Position numbers and translations under genes: made by a program
Part shown: one piece after another, positions 30,027 through 41,915 of the stretch
How positions within the stretch are numbered: position 1 is the stretch's first letter
Layout of the letters: each line of letters opens with the position of its first letter
The notes under the pieces: generated by a model
What the model saw: only the letters and a program-made list of their open reading frames with translations
Databases searched by the model: none
Told to the model about the DNA's origin: nothing
NCBI GenBank assembly: GCA_014802325.1
Contig: JAAVCK010000021.1
Span: 1 to 64,000, forward strand
Length of the DNA stretch: 64,000 nt
Direction of reading: 5' to 3'
From: Bacteroides sp.
GTDB taxonomy: Bacteria; Bacteroidota; Bacteroidia; Bacteroidales; Muribaculaceae

Positions 30027-30100
30027 GGCTCATTAGCTCAACTGAATAGAGCATCTGACTACGGATCAGAAGGTTACAGGTTTGAATCCTGTATGAGTCA
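30027..30100 (+). tRNA. tRNA-Arg (anticodon ACG)
   Basis: Cloverleaf by eye: acceptor GGCTCAT/ATGAGTC, anticodon stem TCTGA-ctACGga-TCAGA, T-loop TTTGAATC. Confidence 0.93.
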
Positions 30101-30114
30101 CAAAGACATAACCC

Positions 30115-30188
30115 GGCTCATTAGCTCAACTGAATAGAGCATCTGACTACGGATCAGAAGGTTACAGGTTTGAATCCTGTATGAGTCA
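30115..30188 (+). tRNA. tRNA-Arg (anticodon ACG), identical second copy
   Basis: 74-nt perfect copy of 30027..30100. Confidence 0.93.
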
Positions 30189-30265
30189 CACAAGCTCGTC
30201 CGGCCTCGGAATTTCCGATAGCCGGATTGCTTTTTTTACCCGATATCATTTTTGCGCTCAGCCGA

Positions 30266-36248: not shown

Positions 36249-39200
36249 CTACAGCAAAATCTTAACACTCATGCCGTTGGTGACTACGATATAGACACCG
36301 CGGGCGAGGCCTTTGATGCGGCCGTCTTCGCTTCGGGCCGCGAGGCGGCCGTCGATGGTGTATACATCTGCTGCACCGGCGGTCACGATCTCACCGTTGA
36401 TGACCTTGACGGCATTATCTTCGCCATTCACGGAGGCAATTCCGGTAGTGGTCGACGATACAATCACAGTACATTCGGCCTTGACATTGCCGCAAGTGGC
36501 GGTGATAGTGGCCTCGCCCTCACCTACAGCGGTCACCACACCATCCTCTCCGACAGTGGCTACGGCTTCATCGCTTGAAGTCCAGGTGATGGTGGGGTCA
36601 GTGGTATCGACGGGAGTTACGGTAGCGGTGAGTTCCACAGTGTCGCCCACGGTAAGTTCTTCCACTTCAGAGCTAAGAATGATACCCTCGGCCGGGATTG
36701 CTTTCTTGCTTACAGTCACCGCGCACTCGGCATTGATGCCGTTGACAGTGATTGCCATGATCACCGTTGAGCCATCAGTATGAGCTGTCACAAGGCCATT
36801 CTCGTCGACAGTAGCGACCTCGGTGTTGCTTGAAGACCATGTAATAGTCTTGTCTGTCGCATTTTCAGGATCATACGACACTACAAGCTGCAGAGTATCC
36901 TCAGGATAGAGAGTTGCTTCGGTGTGGTTGAGACTGATCGCGGTGATTTCTACCGTAGGTACAGGCACCACGGTGATCTCGCACTCATCTTCCTCTCCAT
37001 TTCCGGCAGTTGCGGTGATGATTGCATTGCCCGGCTTGAGTGTGGTGACAAGGCCGTCGGCACCTACAGTCGCTACGGATTCGTCGCTTGTAGTCCAGGT
37101 GATAGTCTTGTCGGTAGCGTCGGTCGGCTCGAAAGTGACTTCGAGTTGCAGCGTGCCACCGGCTTCGATGGTCATTTCGTGGTAATTCAGCGTGATTGTT
37201 TCGACTTCGAATTCAGAATCATTCACCTGCACCGTATATGAAAAGCCTGAATAGAGGCTTCGTGCCACGATATTGCAGGTAGGCTTTGCTGGAACGGGGT
37301 CGGGCTCGGGTTCGCCGCCTTCTTCGACTCCTTCTTCGCCACCTCCGGTTTCGCCGCCTTCACCGGTGGAATCTACATCTGAGGCAAGTAATGCCGGATT
37401 GACCTCTTCACCCTCTTCGGGCTGCTCCACCTCGCCCATGATGGTTACGAGGCCGTTCTGATCCACGGTGGCCACTTCAGGGTCGGTCGAGTACCAGTAA
37501 ATAGTCGGGAAATCAAGGTCGTCACCCTCAAGCTGAGCCGAGAGCTGGAATGTTTCGCCCGGCTCGCCTATGACGTAACGCTCCTCGCTGTGGGTCATGC
37601 CCGTAGGCGCATCCATCAGTACATAGTTTTTGAAGTTAGCCCATCCTACTTTTGACTTCTTGTAGAGCCTTGAGGCCTCCTTGCCCTGCACGTGTACAGT
37701 TGCGTTATAGTTGGCGAAGGAGTTGCTCTTGATAGCAGGGGGAGTCTGAGCCGTAATGTAAATATCGGTAAGCTCGGTTCCGTCAAAGGCATTCGCTCCG
37801 ATATAGGTACAGTCCTCGCCTATAGCTAAGGTGGAGAGCGAGCTGTTCTGGAACGCATTCGTGCCGATATACGAAACCGTAGGCGCGAGCACTACGTCGG
37901 TCAGGCGGTCGCAGCCATAGAAGGCGTAAGCTCCGATCTCGTTCACGGAAGCCGGTGCATGATAGTCGCCCTCCAGGTCGGTGCGGACGAAGAGGATAGT
38001 TTCAAGCCCCTCGCCATATACCACGCCATCTTTATAGTTGGCGCTCTCGGGATTGAACGCCACCGCAAGGGCTGTCGTGAAGGGATTGGTCATGGTCGAC
38101 GGATATGCGGCCTTGATGATGTTGGTGCAGCCGTCAAACGGATTATTCGTGCCCGTGGGCAAGATGGCCGAACATCCCACGAACACTGATTTCAGACCAA
38201 GGCAGCTGCTGAATGCCTTATTGCCCACAGTCTTGATATTTTCCGCGAGGAAGAGTGCTTCCAGTCCCGCGCCTGTGAAGGCATTGGCCTGGATGGTAGT
38301 GACGGATGTGGGGAAATCAATGGATTTCAGCGCCGTACAGCCGTTGAATGCGCTCTGTCCTACGGTAACCAGTCCCTCGGAAAGACTCACCGAAGAAAGC
38401 GCCGTGCAGTTCTGGAACGCGTAATTCGGAATAGTAGTGATTTTTTCAGGAATATTTATAGCCTCCAACGCCGCGCAGCCATAGAAGGCATTCGTGCCGA
38501 GAGTGGCGAGATTATCAGGGAGCGTGATATTGTTGAGTTTCTTGCAATTATAGAACGCCGAGCCGTTGATGGCGGTAAGAGTCTCGGGAAGGGTCACCTC
38601 TGACAACGCACTGCAACCGTAGAATGCACTTGACCCTATGCTCGTGATGCCGCCGGGCAACTTCGCTGAAGTCAGGCAGCTGCAGTTATAGAACAGCGCG
38701 CCCGGAAGCTCGGTAATATTCGCGACGATCTTCAACGAAGGAATTTTCGAGCAGCCGGAGAAGGCATAGGTTCCCAGCGAAGTGACTGATGCAGGGATTG
38801 TTAATTCCGACGCGATTCCTCTACAGTTGTAGAATGCATAATTTCCGATATTTTCGAGTGATGAAGGTAATGACAAGCTTGGGATATTGTTGCAATTCTG
38901 AAATGCATAATTGCCGATCGAAGTCACCTTTTCGGGGATGACCAAATCGGAAACGATCCCCGTGCAGCCGTCGAAAGCATAGTTACCGATAGTTTCTACT
39001 GAAGCCGGCAATGACAGCGATGCGAGCTTGGTGAGCTTCTGGAAAGCATAGTCACCGATCGAAGTCACCGTGGATGGGATAGTCACCGTTTCAAGGCCTG
39101 TGCAGCCGACAAAAGCACTGCATCCGATCGTGGTGACGGTATTAGGCACTTCAAATTCAGTTTCGCTATAGTCGGGCATCATGGCCACCAGAATGCTGTT

Positions 39201-41111
39201 ATCGCCGTTATACACTAAATCCCCCTCAATATGCACGCCCGTAAGATTCTCATAGGGCGTATAAGCGACATAAGCAGTGGTGGGTACATTCGTGAAACTC
39301 GGCTTTGACTTCGTAGACGGATACATAAATTTCTTTATGTTGGTACAATCCTGGAATGAGTTAGATGTCGAACCATACGTAACATTCCGTCCAACCATTA
39401 CAAATTGCAAGCTCTTAACTCCGGCAAAAGCATAACTTCCAATAGTTTTGATATCAGGTAAAAAGAGACAGGTTAATTCTTGAATATTTGTATTATTAAA
39501 AGCATAATTACCGATATTCTCTAATTGAGTAGGCAAGTTTACCGAAGTAAGATTGCTGGCATTATAAAAAGCATAATCACCGATCGAAGTCACGGAAGAA
39601 GGGATTGTCACCGATTCAAGGCCGGTACATTGTTGAAAAATTCCCTTCCCAATTATCTCCAATTGAGGCAAGTCTATCGAAGTAAGATTGGTGGCATTAT
39701 AAAAAGCATAATCACCGATTGAAGTCACGGAGACGGGGATTGTCACCGATTCAAGGCCGGTGCAGCCGCCAAAAGCACCGCTTCCGATCGTGGTGACAGT
39801 ATTAGGCACTTCAAATTCCGCTTCGCTATAGTCGGGCATCAAAGCCACCAGAATGTTGCCATCGGTGCTGTACACCAAATCGCCCTCTATCTTCACACTC
39901 ATAAGATTCTTATCGGGCGTATAAGGTACATAAGCAGTGGTGGGCACATTCGAAAAACTCGGCTTCGACGTTGTGGCCGGATACATATACTTCTTTATGT
40001 TGGTACATTCCTCGAATGAGTAAGATGGCACACCATACGTCCCATACCTAATATTTGATCCAACCATTACAAATTGTAAGCTTTTAACTCCGGAAAAAGC
40101 ATAATATTCAATGTTTTTAATTTTAGGCAAAACGAGAGAGGTTAAGTTTTGAATATTTGTATTCTGAAAAGCTGCACGGCCGATTATCTCTAATCCAGCA
40201 GGCAATTCTACCGAAGTAAGATTGGAGGCGTAATTAAAAGCATATTCACCAATTTCAACTACTGATTCGGGTATTACAATTTGCTCAAGTCTGCCATTAC
40301 TCCTTGCTGCATATTGATCAATTTTTGTGACGGTATCAGGGAACTTGACTTTTTGAACTAAATCAGAGATACAATACACAGTAGTTTTATCGGAATTGTA
40401 TAATATTCCATCCTCATATACTACTTCATCGGCGTTATATTGAAAGAAATATGAAGGAGAAAAATTCTTATTAAATGGCCAAGTTACTGTTGATGGATAG
40501 AATACAAATGTTGGGGGATAATTAGGTGCAGACGTATCAAAGGCGTTTGAACTTATTGAAACATCACCCGATAGAATGAGAAGTTTGTCTACATTCATAC
40601 TTGTAAAGGCATAGTTTTTAATTGTTTTAACAGAAGCAGGAATGGTTAGACTACTTAACTTACAACTATTAAAAGCGTTAACACCAATAGTTGTCACACC
40701 CTCCGGAATCCGGATGTAAGTTAAATTAGTACAGGATTGGAATGTATAGTCCGCAATCTCTGTTAACGACGTGCTTAACTGACAGGAAGCCAAGGCCGAG
40801 CAGGACGAAAAACAAGAATTACCTACCGAGGTGATAGTATTGGGCATGACCACCGATTCTATCACCGTGTTATTTTGGAAAACCTTGTCTGCGATGGAGG
40901 TGACGGTGTAGGTGGTGCCGGAGTCGGGATCGGTGACAGTTTCTGGAATAACGACTGCGCCTGTAGCCGAAGCGCCGCCACCTGTAAGGGCGCAGGTAGT
41001 GCCGTCGGAATTTGGAGTGTATTCAAGAGTGTTACCTTCATGTTCGAAGGTAAAGGCCATACCCGGAAGGGCAATGAGCAGGCCCAAAAGTGCGAGTAAT
41101 AGTTTTTTCAT
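36249..41111 (-). CDS. BspA-like leucine-rich repeat surface protein with Ig-like (Big_2) domains and a C-terminal sorting-like tail
   Basis: 1620 aa; signal peptide; many LRR_5 units (VTSIGDYAFYNATNLTSIDLP); four Big_2-like units (TWTSSDEAVATVGEDGVVTAVGEGEATITAT); C-terminus VYTIDGRLAARSEDGRIKGLARGVYIVVTNGMSVKILL. Confidence 0.93.
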   Translation of the reverse strand: MKKLLLALLGLLIALPGMAFTFEHEGNTLEYTPNSDGTTCALTGGGASATGAVVIPETVTDPDSGTTYTVTSIADKVFQNNTVIESVVMPNTITSVGNSCFSSCSALASCQLSTSLTEIADYTFQSCTNLTYIRIPEGVTTIGVNAFNSCKLSSLTIPASVKTIKNYAFTSMNVDKLLILSGDVSISSNAFDTSAPNYPPTFVFYPSTVTWPFNKNFSPSYFFQYNADEVVYEDGILYNSDKTTVYCISDLVQKVKFPDTVTKIDQYAARSNGRLEQIVIPESVVEIGEYAFNYASNLTSVELPAGLEIIGRAAFQNTNIQNLTSLVLPKIKNIEYYAFSGVKSLQFVMVGSNIRYGTYGVPSYSFEECTNIKKYMYPATTSKPSFSNVPTTAYVPYTPDKNLMSVKIEGDLVYSTDGNILVALMPDYSEAEFEVPNTVTTIGSGAFGGCTGLESVTIPVSVTSIGDYAFYNATNLTSIDLPQLEIIGKGIFQQCTGLESVTIPSSVTSIGDYAFYNASNLTSVNLPTQLENIGNYAFNNTNIQELTCLFLPDIKTIGSYAFAGVKSLQFVMVGRNVTYGSTSNSFQDCTNIKKFMYPSTKSKPSFTNVPTTAYVAYTPYENLTGVHIEGDLVYNGDNSILVAMMPDYSETEFEVPNTVTTIGCSAFVGCTGLETVTIPSTVTSIGDYAFQKLTKLASLSLPASVETIGNYAFDGCTGIVSDLVIPEKVTSIGNYAFQNCNNIPSLSLPSSLENIGNYAFYNCRGIASELTIPASVTSLGTYAFSGCSKIPSLKIVANITELPGALFYNCSCLTSAKLPGGITSIGSSAFYGCSALSEVTLPETLTAINGSAFYNCKKLNNITLPDNLATLGTNAFYGCAALEAINIPEKITTIPNYAFQNCTALSSVSLSEGLVTVGQSAFNGCTALKSIDFPTSVTTIQANAFTGAGLEALFLAENIKTVGNKAFSSCLGLKSVFVGCSAILPTGTNNPFDGCTNIIKAAYPSTMTNPFTTALAVAFNPESANYKDGVVYGEGLETILFVRTDLEGDYHAPASVNEIGAYAFYGCDRLTDVVLAPTVSYIGTNAFQNSSLSTLAIGEDCTYIGANAFDGTELTDIYITAQTPPAIKSNSFANYNATVHVQGKEASRLYKKSKVGWANFKNYVLMDAPTGMTHSEERYVIGEPGETFQLSAQLEGDDLDFPTIYWYSTDPEVATVDQNGLVTIMGEVEQPEEGEEVNPALLASDVDSTGEGGETGGGEEGVEEGGEPEPDPVPAKPTCNIVARSLYSGFSYTVQVNDSEFEVETITLNYHEMTIEAGGTLQLEVTFEPTDATDKTITWTTSDESVATVGADGLVTTLKPGNAIITATAGNGEEDECEITVVPVPTVEITAISLNHTEATLYPEDTLQLVVSYDPENATDKTITWSSSNTEVATVDENGLVTAHTDGSTVIMAITVNGINAECAVTVSKKAIPAEGIILSSEVEELTVGDTVELTATVTPVDTTDPTITWTSSDEAVATVGEDGVVTAVGEGEATITATCGNVKAECTVIVSSTTTGIASVNGEDNAVKVINGEIVTAGAADVYTIDGRLAARSEDGRIKGLARGVYIVVTNGMSVKILL

Positions 41112-41170
41112 CGCTGCAAAAGGTATTAGTATGCCTTAAGATTCCCCTCCTCAGCAAGTTACAGATAGGT

Positions 41171-41535
41171 TAATAAAAAAAGAAAAGCGTAGGAATCTGT
41201 ATCTGTTGCCGTCCTACACTCTGAGGCTTCTCGCATTGCCCTATTCTTGTCGGACGGCAACGCAGAAGCCCACGCCAGTATATGCAATCTATGCTCCGGC
41301 AAGATCTCTCACGAGCTCCTATGCCGAAGACAAGGTATTACATTACCACGGGCATCTACCGTTGCTCCTCCTTGACAAGAATATGAAAAGTTTGCGAGAC
41401 ATTTCAGAGTGTCAAGAATCAGCGCGGATAAACGCTTTTTTATGTATTTAAATACATCCCACCCTACGAAACCCCTTCCCGGAGGTTGGTTCCGATAAGG
41501 AGCCTTACCCTACTGGCGTGGTCCGCAGTGCGGTC
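41171..41535 (-). ncRNA. Candidate structured 5' leader / non-coding RNA upstream of the LRR gene
   Basis: Minus strand has GGCTTCTGC-GTTGCCGTCC...GCGAGAAGCC...GGACGGCAAC (H-type pseudoknot order), an extra ATTCTTGTC/GACAAGAAT helix, a U-rich tract (CTTTTCTTTTTTTATT) and no sustained ORF on that strand. Confidence 0.5.
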
Positions 41536-41542
41536 TGCACCG

Positions 41543-41573
41543 CAAATGTAATCAAAAAAAATTATTTCACAAA
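41543..41573 (-). promoter_or_regulatory. Bacteroidetes-type promoter for the leader/LRR gene
   Basis: Minus strand TTTG-N19-TACATTTG, consensus match. Confidence 0.65.
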
Positions 41574-41703: not shown

Positions 41704-41915
41704 TAGTGTATATACGACACTCCTGTAGGGGCGCTTCATAGGAGCGCCCGGCCGCGCAAAATGGTAATTTAATACCCCCGCACACACAGGCTGCCGTTGC
41801 CGCTCACCATTCCCCGCCGGGCGCTCCGGTGGAGCGCCCCTACAACCAACACCCAACAACATTCATCATTATAATAAACCCGTAGGAGCGCTTCATAGGA
41901 GCACCCGGCGAGGAA
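41704..41915. repeat. Palindromic module cluster C
   Basis: TGTAGGGGCGCTtcataggAGCGCCCGGC; GCCGGGCGCTCCggtGGAGCGCCCCTACAA; GTAGGAGCGCTTCATAGGAGCACCCGGCG; the second resembles GCCGGACGCTCcccggtGAGCGTCCCTACAA at 30445..30475. Confidence 0.75.

Follow-up and report, generated by a model that had tools for sequence, protein, structure and literature searches.

An uncatalogued Bacteroidales leader RNA that looks like a leader-peptide-free transcription attenuator

Layout of the locus

The window analysed here is the whole 64,000-nt stretch of Bacteroides sp. contig JAAVCK010000021.1 (positions 1 to 64,000). A large surface-protein gene lies on its minus strand, preceded on the 5' side by a folded leader RNA (41171-41440, minus strand) that has a Bacteroidetes-type promoter of its own. 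The promoter and the end of a U-run delimit a predicted transcript of about 365 nt. The core common to homologues spans approximately query positions 143-410, that is, window 41171-41438, and its 3' edge is the U-run. The features are given below in the order of transcription; X and Y denote the two alternative folds described later, and the numbers 1 to 4 the strands Z, A, C and B.

41543-41573, minus strand: Bacteroidetes-type promoter TTTG-N19-TACATTTG, the string being present at these coordinates
41441-41542, minus strand: 5' part of the transcript, GCAGACCG hairpin region, more variable among copies (59-copy alignment)
41427-41435, minus strand: strand Z (1), GCGTTTATC, partner of strand A in fold Y
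41411-41418, minus strand: PA 5' strand, TTCTTGAC, partner of 41369-41376 in fold Y (covariation z 8.6)
41405-41411, minus strand: P2 5' strand, CACTCTG, partner of 41217-41223 in fold X
41394-41399, minus strand: P2i 5' strand, TCTCGC, partner of 41229-41234 in fold X
41374-41382, minus strand: P3 5' strand, ATTCTTGTC, partner of 41243-41251 in fold X
41369-41376, minus strand: PA 3' strand, GTCAAGGA, fold Y (covariation)
41346-41371, minus strand: strand A (2), partner of C in fold X or of Z in fold Y (unbiased RNAalifold consensus)
41252-41275, minus strand: strand C (3), near-invariant GCGTGGGCTTCTGCGTTGCCGTCC, partner of A in fold X or of B in fold Y
41243-41251, minus strand: P3 3' strand, GACAAGAAT, fold X (covariation)
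41229-41234, minus strand: P2i 3' strand, GCGAGA, fold X
41217-41223, minus strand: P2 3' strand, CAGAGTG, fold X (covariation)
41187-41214, minus strand: strand B (4), GGACGGCAACAGATACAGATTCCTACGC, partner of C (P6-P7-PK2), flush against the U-run
41171-41186, minus strand: U-run, putative intrinsic-terminator tail (T frequency across 128 copies)
41133-41155, minus strand: H6 hairpin 3' of the U-run, loop GGGAATCT (41139-41146) complementary to AGATTCCT in B (41191-41198)
36249-41111, minus strand: downstream gene for a 1620-aa BspA-type LRR/Big_2 surface protein with a signal-peptide-like start (PF13306, E 3e-236; PF02368, E 1.5e-55)

The C-terminal end of the LRR protein resembles, by eye, a type IX secretion sorting domain. 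Divergent from its gene lies a gene for an UpxY-family transcription antiterminator (NF033644; 42055-42624, plus strand), and behind the latter a flippase-like gene (weak MATE-family match) and others suggest a polysaccharide locus. Between the leader and the UpxY gene, a GC-rich palindromic repeat of the GGGGCGCTTCATAGGAGCGCCC type is present three times at window 41722-41909, with both orientations represented. This REP-like repeat occurs nine times in the genome with at most two mismatches, while a reversed control pattern gave none. Elsewhere in the window, a tandem pair of tRNA-Arg(ACG) genes with equal scores lies at 30027-30189 (plus strand).

An earlier sequence-only reading had proposed an undescribed structured RNA in this leader, driven by the promoter at 41573-41543. 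The promoter string is there, and 114 of 129 copies have a TAnnTTTG promoter in the 180 nt preceding the core, where 12.3 are expected from shuffles; TTTG-N0-8-GCAGAC is present in 43 of 129. The strands which that reading quoted, GGCTTCTGC (41270-41262), GTTGCCGTCC (41261-41252) and GGACGGCAAC (41214-41205), also lie where it placed them. Blocks of the core, GCAACGGTAGATGCCC, CATATAC, GGGCAAT and GAAGCCTC, are conserved and invariant. The computed fold of the leader is far beyond chance, with energies at z = -5.8 (463-nt leader) and z = -7.3 (265-nt core) relative to dinucleotide shuffles. As for a decayed coding gene as the cause of the conservation, no reading frame explains it: the indels are not multiples of three and the covariation is specific to helices.

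Comparison with catalogued RNA families

When the window and 17 homologue loci were searched with Rfam 15, no model matched the leader and only tRNAs reached the gathering cut-off, so that the window's leader belongs to no named family there. At relaxed thresholds all matches were chance ones below the cut-off, and the strongest fell in the GC-rich repeats upstream. A diverged representative of some known class (riboswitch, T-box or r-protein leader) would share the leader position and the switch-like anatomy. However, at E values up to 10 no relevant Rfam match appeared in these loci, and the downstream genes fit no known class; we regard this explanation, already disfavoured, as barely credible.

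Other Bacteroidales motifs were described by Weinberg 2010 (PMC2864571), mostly now in Rfam, and none of them matched the leader. Fremin and Bhatt 2021 (PMC8040213) reported thousands of candidates in a survey of microbiome RNA motifs. No description of the leader family was found in the literature searched, which took in the latter article without its supplementary tables, where an unnamed earlier listing is possible. With no Rfam match, strong covariation, a conserved promoter, a U-run and a position before genes, the proposal of an undescribed structured RNA holds: the leader family is genuine, widespread and uncatalogued.

Distribution of the leader family

Genomes were searched with R1, a covariance model built from the 3' half of the leader. 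Scoring was limited to the best candidates in each genome, which makes the resulting counts lower bounds. In the window's own family at least 106 of 119 genomes carry the leader, with up to at least 18 copies each. Across the order the figure is at least 33 of 295 genomes, four of them from the window's family, and outside that family at least 29 of 291. Among the best candidates per genome in 346 genomes drawn evenly from the phylum, only the window's own genome matched. A nucleotide search of 61 related genomes gave matches in 35, the window's own genome having at least six such places. Eight leader copies are present in that genome, which has about six BspA-type LRR genes; two of these carry the leader.

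When named GTDB genomes were scanned for the pattern, the leader was found in Duncaniella, Muribaculum, Paramuribaculum, Prevotella and Paraprevotella clara, as well as in records of Phocaeicola oris, Bacteroides, Barnesiella, Parabacteroides and Alistipes. All of these loci were confirmed by R1, and all are from Bacteroidales except one bin labelled Pseudoflavonifractor, which is likely misbinned or mislabelled. Duncaniella muris DSM 103720 is among the carriers (L157). Three IMG/VR contigs of the viral collection (L221, L222 and L223) carry the motif and may be prophage, plasmid or host sequence. Many leader copies are situated at contig ends. Three near such ends (L031, L063 and L064) share an odd 5' edge, with TTAGAGTTTATCC replacing AAAGCGTTTATCC, perhaps owing to assembly joins at a multi-copy repeat.

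Covariation defines fold X

Structure was assessed in MAFFT alignments A1 and A2 and in a 124-sequence set, in which invariant blocks are joined by helices that change fully among copies. P2 occurs with 80 different 5' strands, each matched by its own 3' strand, and its mean helix is 6.7 against 3.2 when partners are swapped (z 33.6). For P3 the comparison of own with swapped partners gave z 32, and 7 of 7 pairs are changed on both sides. Neither score was reached in any of 500 shuffles. The swap and shuffle controls ignore the relatedness of the copies; the variety of strands nevertheless makes the covariation of P2 and P3 safe. In P2i (TCTCGC/GCGAGA) pairing is kept at 100%, and three pairs show compensatory changes, which are rare.

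RNAalifold run without any structure input returned P2, P2i, P3 and the 2:3 helix of A (41346-41371) with C (41252-41275), all nested, and this is fold X. Its covariation score is 0.434 against 0.118 in shuffled alignments, and it collapses on sliding. Both folds were tested on the same sequences from which they were derived, and the unbiased RNAalifold run backs X, not Y.

The sequence-only reading had named three helices. One, GACAAGAAT (41251-41243) with ATTCTTGTC, is P3 and covaries as described, its ATTCTTGTC strand having been placed one base off its actual position at 41382-41374. Another, GGCTTCTGC with GCGAGAAGCC, shows no significant covariation (58 of 500 shuffles); GCGAGA pairs instead with TCTCGC at 41399-41394. 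The third is taken up below; it and P3 have covariation behind them.

The computed fold X also pairs AAAAGCGT at the 5' side (41433-41440) with ACGCUUUU (41182-41189) beside and inside the U-run, where one copy (L175, GGTG with CAC) hints at covariation. A short GTAGGA/TCCTAC hairpin covaries as well (z 6.4) and has no assigned place in either fold.

An alternative fold Y and a four-strand switch

Strand C is complementary to B too, through GCGTGGG/CCTACGC (P6), TCTG/CAGA (P7) and GTTGCCGTCC/GGACGGCAAC (PK2). Variants of P6 are matched by their own partners (GTGTGGG/CCCACAC, ACGTGAGG/CCTCACGT, GCGTGGA/TCCACGC and GCGTGAGG/TCTCACGC; z 6.8 among variants). In distant copies PK2 changes to GTTGCTCGTT(C)/G(G)ACGAGCAAC and GTTGCTTATC/GGATAAGTAAC, with a covariation z of 8.2; PK2 is the third helix of the earlier reading, which is thus borne out. 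When PK2 was enforced in folding, a 5' hairpin emerged in which Z and TTCTTGAC pair with A and GTCAAGGA. Within this hairpin, PA covaries (z 8.6) and is incompatible with P2 and P3 in one nested fold. The H-type pseudoknot of the earlier reading is wrong, since the GTTGCCGTCC strand has alternative partners, upstream in A (fold X) or downstream in B (fold Y).

Over fold Y as a whole, 96.9% of cells are paired, and 98.8% for strand Z, while the compensatory changes exceed those of all 500 shuffles. Variation in fold Y is mostly one-sided, as expected because the strands must fit two partners. Strand C is nearly invariant and covariation within it is limited, so part of the support for X and for Y comes from one-sided changes. 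Judged from these alignments, the leader has two predicted global folds, both conserved and mutually exclusive: X (2:3 with P2 and P3) and Y (1:2 with 3:4). As A:C (2:3) excludes both Z:A (1:2) and C:B (3:4), the strands Z, A, C and B behave as attenuator strands 1 to 4. By calculation, fold X is favoured over Y by about 8 kcal/mol; hence a stabilising factor is required for Y to form. Minimum-energy folds computed for growing transcripts contained 1:2 in 51 of 52 once A was made, and 2:3, then X, in 52 of 52 once C was made.

The U-run, its stem and the H6 hairpin

A U-rich tract following the helices had been noted earlier; it is present at 41186-41171 as a conserved U-run, whose first four positions have T frequencies of 0.95, 1.00, 0.95 and 0.85 (128 copies). 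C:B is a stem of about 21 bp flush against it. When the segment from C to B was folded alone, the stem was closed beside the U-run in 102 of 122 copies, at a mean of -39 kcal/mol. A simple terminator scan did not flag the leader site because the C:B stem has a long, structured loop.

Beyond the U-run, the H6 loop covaries with the 3' half of B (z 9.5 over all copies and 8.6 for rare variants), as in GTTCTCCA/TGGAGAAC and AGGCTCA/TGAGCCT. Inspected by eye, many copies have 10-17 nt between the end of H6 and the ATG, and H6 is degenerate in some. Because H6 is transcribed later than the U-run, it cannot stop termination, and a role in translation is therefore conceivable; we interpret it as either latching the ON fold or adding a translational layer. 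An ATGACC within H6, considered as a real start codon (MTAA/MTEA proteins), was judged by eye to be chance framing.

These features bear on a rival in which the U-run is read through and the leader is a translational or mRNA-stability switch, the folds setting the pairing of the H6 loop, short of the AUG, to B. The covariation of the loop with B, the closeness of H6 to the ATG and the narrow distance from U-run to start codon, mostly 21-77 nt, would suit such a switch. Against it, the C:B stem directly abuts the U-run, whose first positions are highly conserved, as expected for termination, and H6 is degenerate in some copies. We therefore consider such a switch unlikely as the main mechanism and keep to premature termination.

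Genes downstream of the leader

The next gene is on the same strand in 66 copies and on the opposite strand in 4. The proteins behind the leaders are largely unrelated to one another. By a simple hydrophobicity rule, 64 of 89 downstream proteins are secreted-like compared with 278 of 723 other genes of the same loci (odds ratio 4.1, p = 2e-9). BspA-type LRR proteins account for 20 of 86 downstream proteins, and among the rest are C10 peptidases, carboxypeptidase-regulatory-domain lipoproteins, GIY-YIG proteins and a few cytoplasmic proteins. Anti-phage defence or a single metabolic pathway was rejected as the regulon theme after PADLOC and NCBIfam searches, which found nothing common except surface proteins. 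With no obvious shared pathway among them, the genes give no pointer to a ligand. Given the promoter upstream and the position before genes, the conserved unit consists of promoter, leader, U-run and hairpin, before many accessory genes.

This gene context is what a cis-regulatory leader predicts, unlike a free sRNA. The earlier suggestion of an attenuator or a processed sRNA accordingly survives in its first half; the second is not favoured because the copies are tied to a same-strand gene. A terminated leader acting in trans as a small RNA, with the downstream gene incidental, could draw on the promoter and U-run end that give a transcript of about 365 nt, and on the long invariant blocks common to copies within a genome. 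Such a role is nonetheless very unlikely in light of the same-strand next gene in nearly all copies, its narrow distance, and the alternative folds and H6 past the U-run, which point to cis action.

For any given leader, the nearest neighbour is mostly in another genome and before an unrelated gene; it precedes a homologous gene in 11 of 52 cases. Recent intragenomic transposition was rejected, the nearest neighbour being in the same genome in just 5 of 52. The promoter-leader unit might be mainly a mobile or recombining cassette for surface-gene exchange, with regulation secondary, and its multiple copies, the many contig-end positions and the unrelated neighbours would agree with that. On the other hand, same-genome nearest neighbours are few, the covariation at the RNA level is strong, the phage and plasmid records searched gave no match, and no terminal repeats or target duplications were identified. 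We hold the cassette explanation to be rather improbable, and regulation in cis by the leader remains our preferred reading.

In three genomes the leader (L034, L041 and L059) stands before the same two-gene unit, encoding a 224-aa protein, SLOG-like by eye, and then a protein of about 330 aa. Two of these leaders are about 92% identical; the case exemplifies a leader that has stayed with its gene.

Relation to known attenuation systems

As in RNA-only attenuators, alignment points to exclusive and conserved antiterminator and terminator helices, and the terminator stem abuts the U-run, its loop being too long for a simple scan. The leader resembles trp/his-type attenuators in its four strands, with 1:2 and 3:4 (the stem flush on the U-run) opposed to 2:3. 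It differs from them in having no conserved leader peptide, in being much larger and structurally conserved, and in not preceding biosynthesis operons. A leader-peptide attenuator was rejected: the one recurrent mini-frame, ATGCCCGTGG..ATGTAA, lies in strand A, and it is broken by indels that are not multiples of three (in alignment A2, +1 in L060 and L088 and -1 in L047 and L083). No conserved ATG was found in the 5' part of the leader in the 59-copy alignment.

Orphan riboswitch candidates with terminator platforms share the large conserved core, the exclusive folds, the cis position and several regulon members per genome. The leader family differs in that it matches no Rfam class and in that its genes are mostly surface, secreted or accessory ones, not those of one pathway. 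The UpxY-regulated capsule leaders of Bacteroides are long and thought to control read-through. The present leader is likewise a long Bacteroidales leader, and a UpxY gene divergently adjoins the window copy, whereas copies of the family precede unrelated genes. Assignment to the UpxY type was rejected because the upxY-like first operon gene that defines it is lacking here: the leader precedes the LRR gene and the UpxY gene is divergent. EAR (epsC) and LoaP-dependent processive antitermination RNAs likewise act in cis on termination, in long operons such as those for exopolysaccharide; the leader differs in having no match to epsC RF01735 and in ending in its own U-run.

Proposed mechanism and significance

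The window leader is probably a copy of a Bacteroidales-specific cis-acting RNA family that controls downstream transcription by premature termination, and to judge by sequence it resembles a transcription attenuator that lacks a leader peptide. On the emerging RNA, Z:A (1:2) would form first. Without interference A would then pair with C (2:3), and P3, P2i and P2 would zip up to give fold X, leaving B free, so that RNA polymerase would read into the gene (ON). A signal that holds Z:A or otherwise frees C would instead let C pair with B (3:4), and the long C:B stem abutting the U-run would cause termination (fold Y, OFF). Once read-through has occurred, the freed part of B may be captured by the H6 loop just 5' of the AUG, which would act as an ON latch or tune translation. 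From the computed energies we infer that ON looks like the default and that OFF needs a signal.

The size of the leader and its invariant unpaired blocks fit ligand sensing, as by a riboswitch, or a protein common to a surface and accessory regulon. A new class of cis-acting attenuator is our best reading, and it is possibly a riboswitch. More specifically, and as a tentative proposal that we would put at somewhat under an even chance, the family may be an order-specific new riboswitch class that senses a small molecule directly and co-ordinates a surface and secreted regulon, with a post-terminator latch hairpin. We know of no other attenuator with such a latch. To our knowledge, few regulatory RNAs are known from Bacteroidales, and we have found none that unites scattered surface genes.

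If the riboswitch proposal is true, its regulon would consist of BspA LRR adhesin-like proteins, C10 proteases and lipoproteins in dominant mouse-gut Bacteroidales. Being present in about nine of ten sampled genomes of the window's family, with up to at least 18 copies, the leader should be a main handle on the choice of what these bacteria display at their surface.
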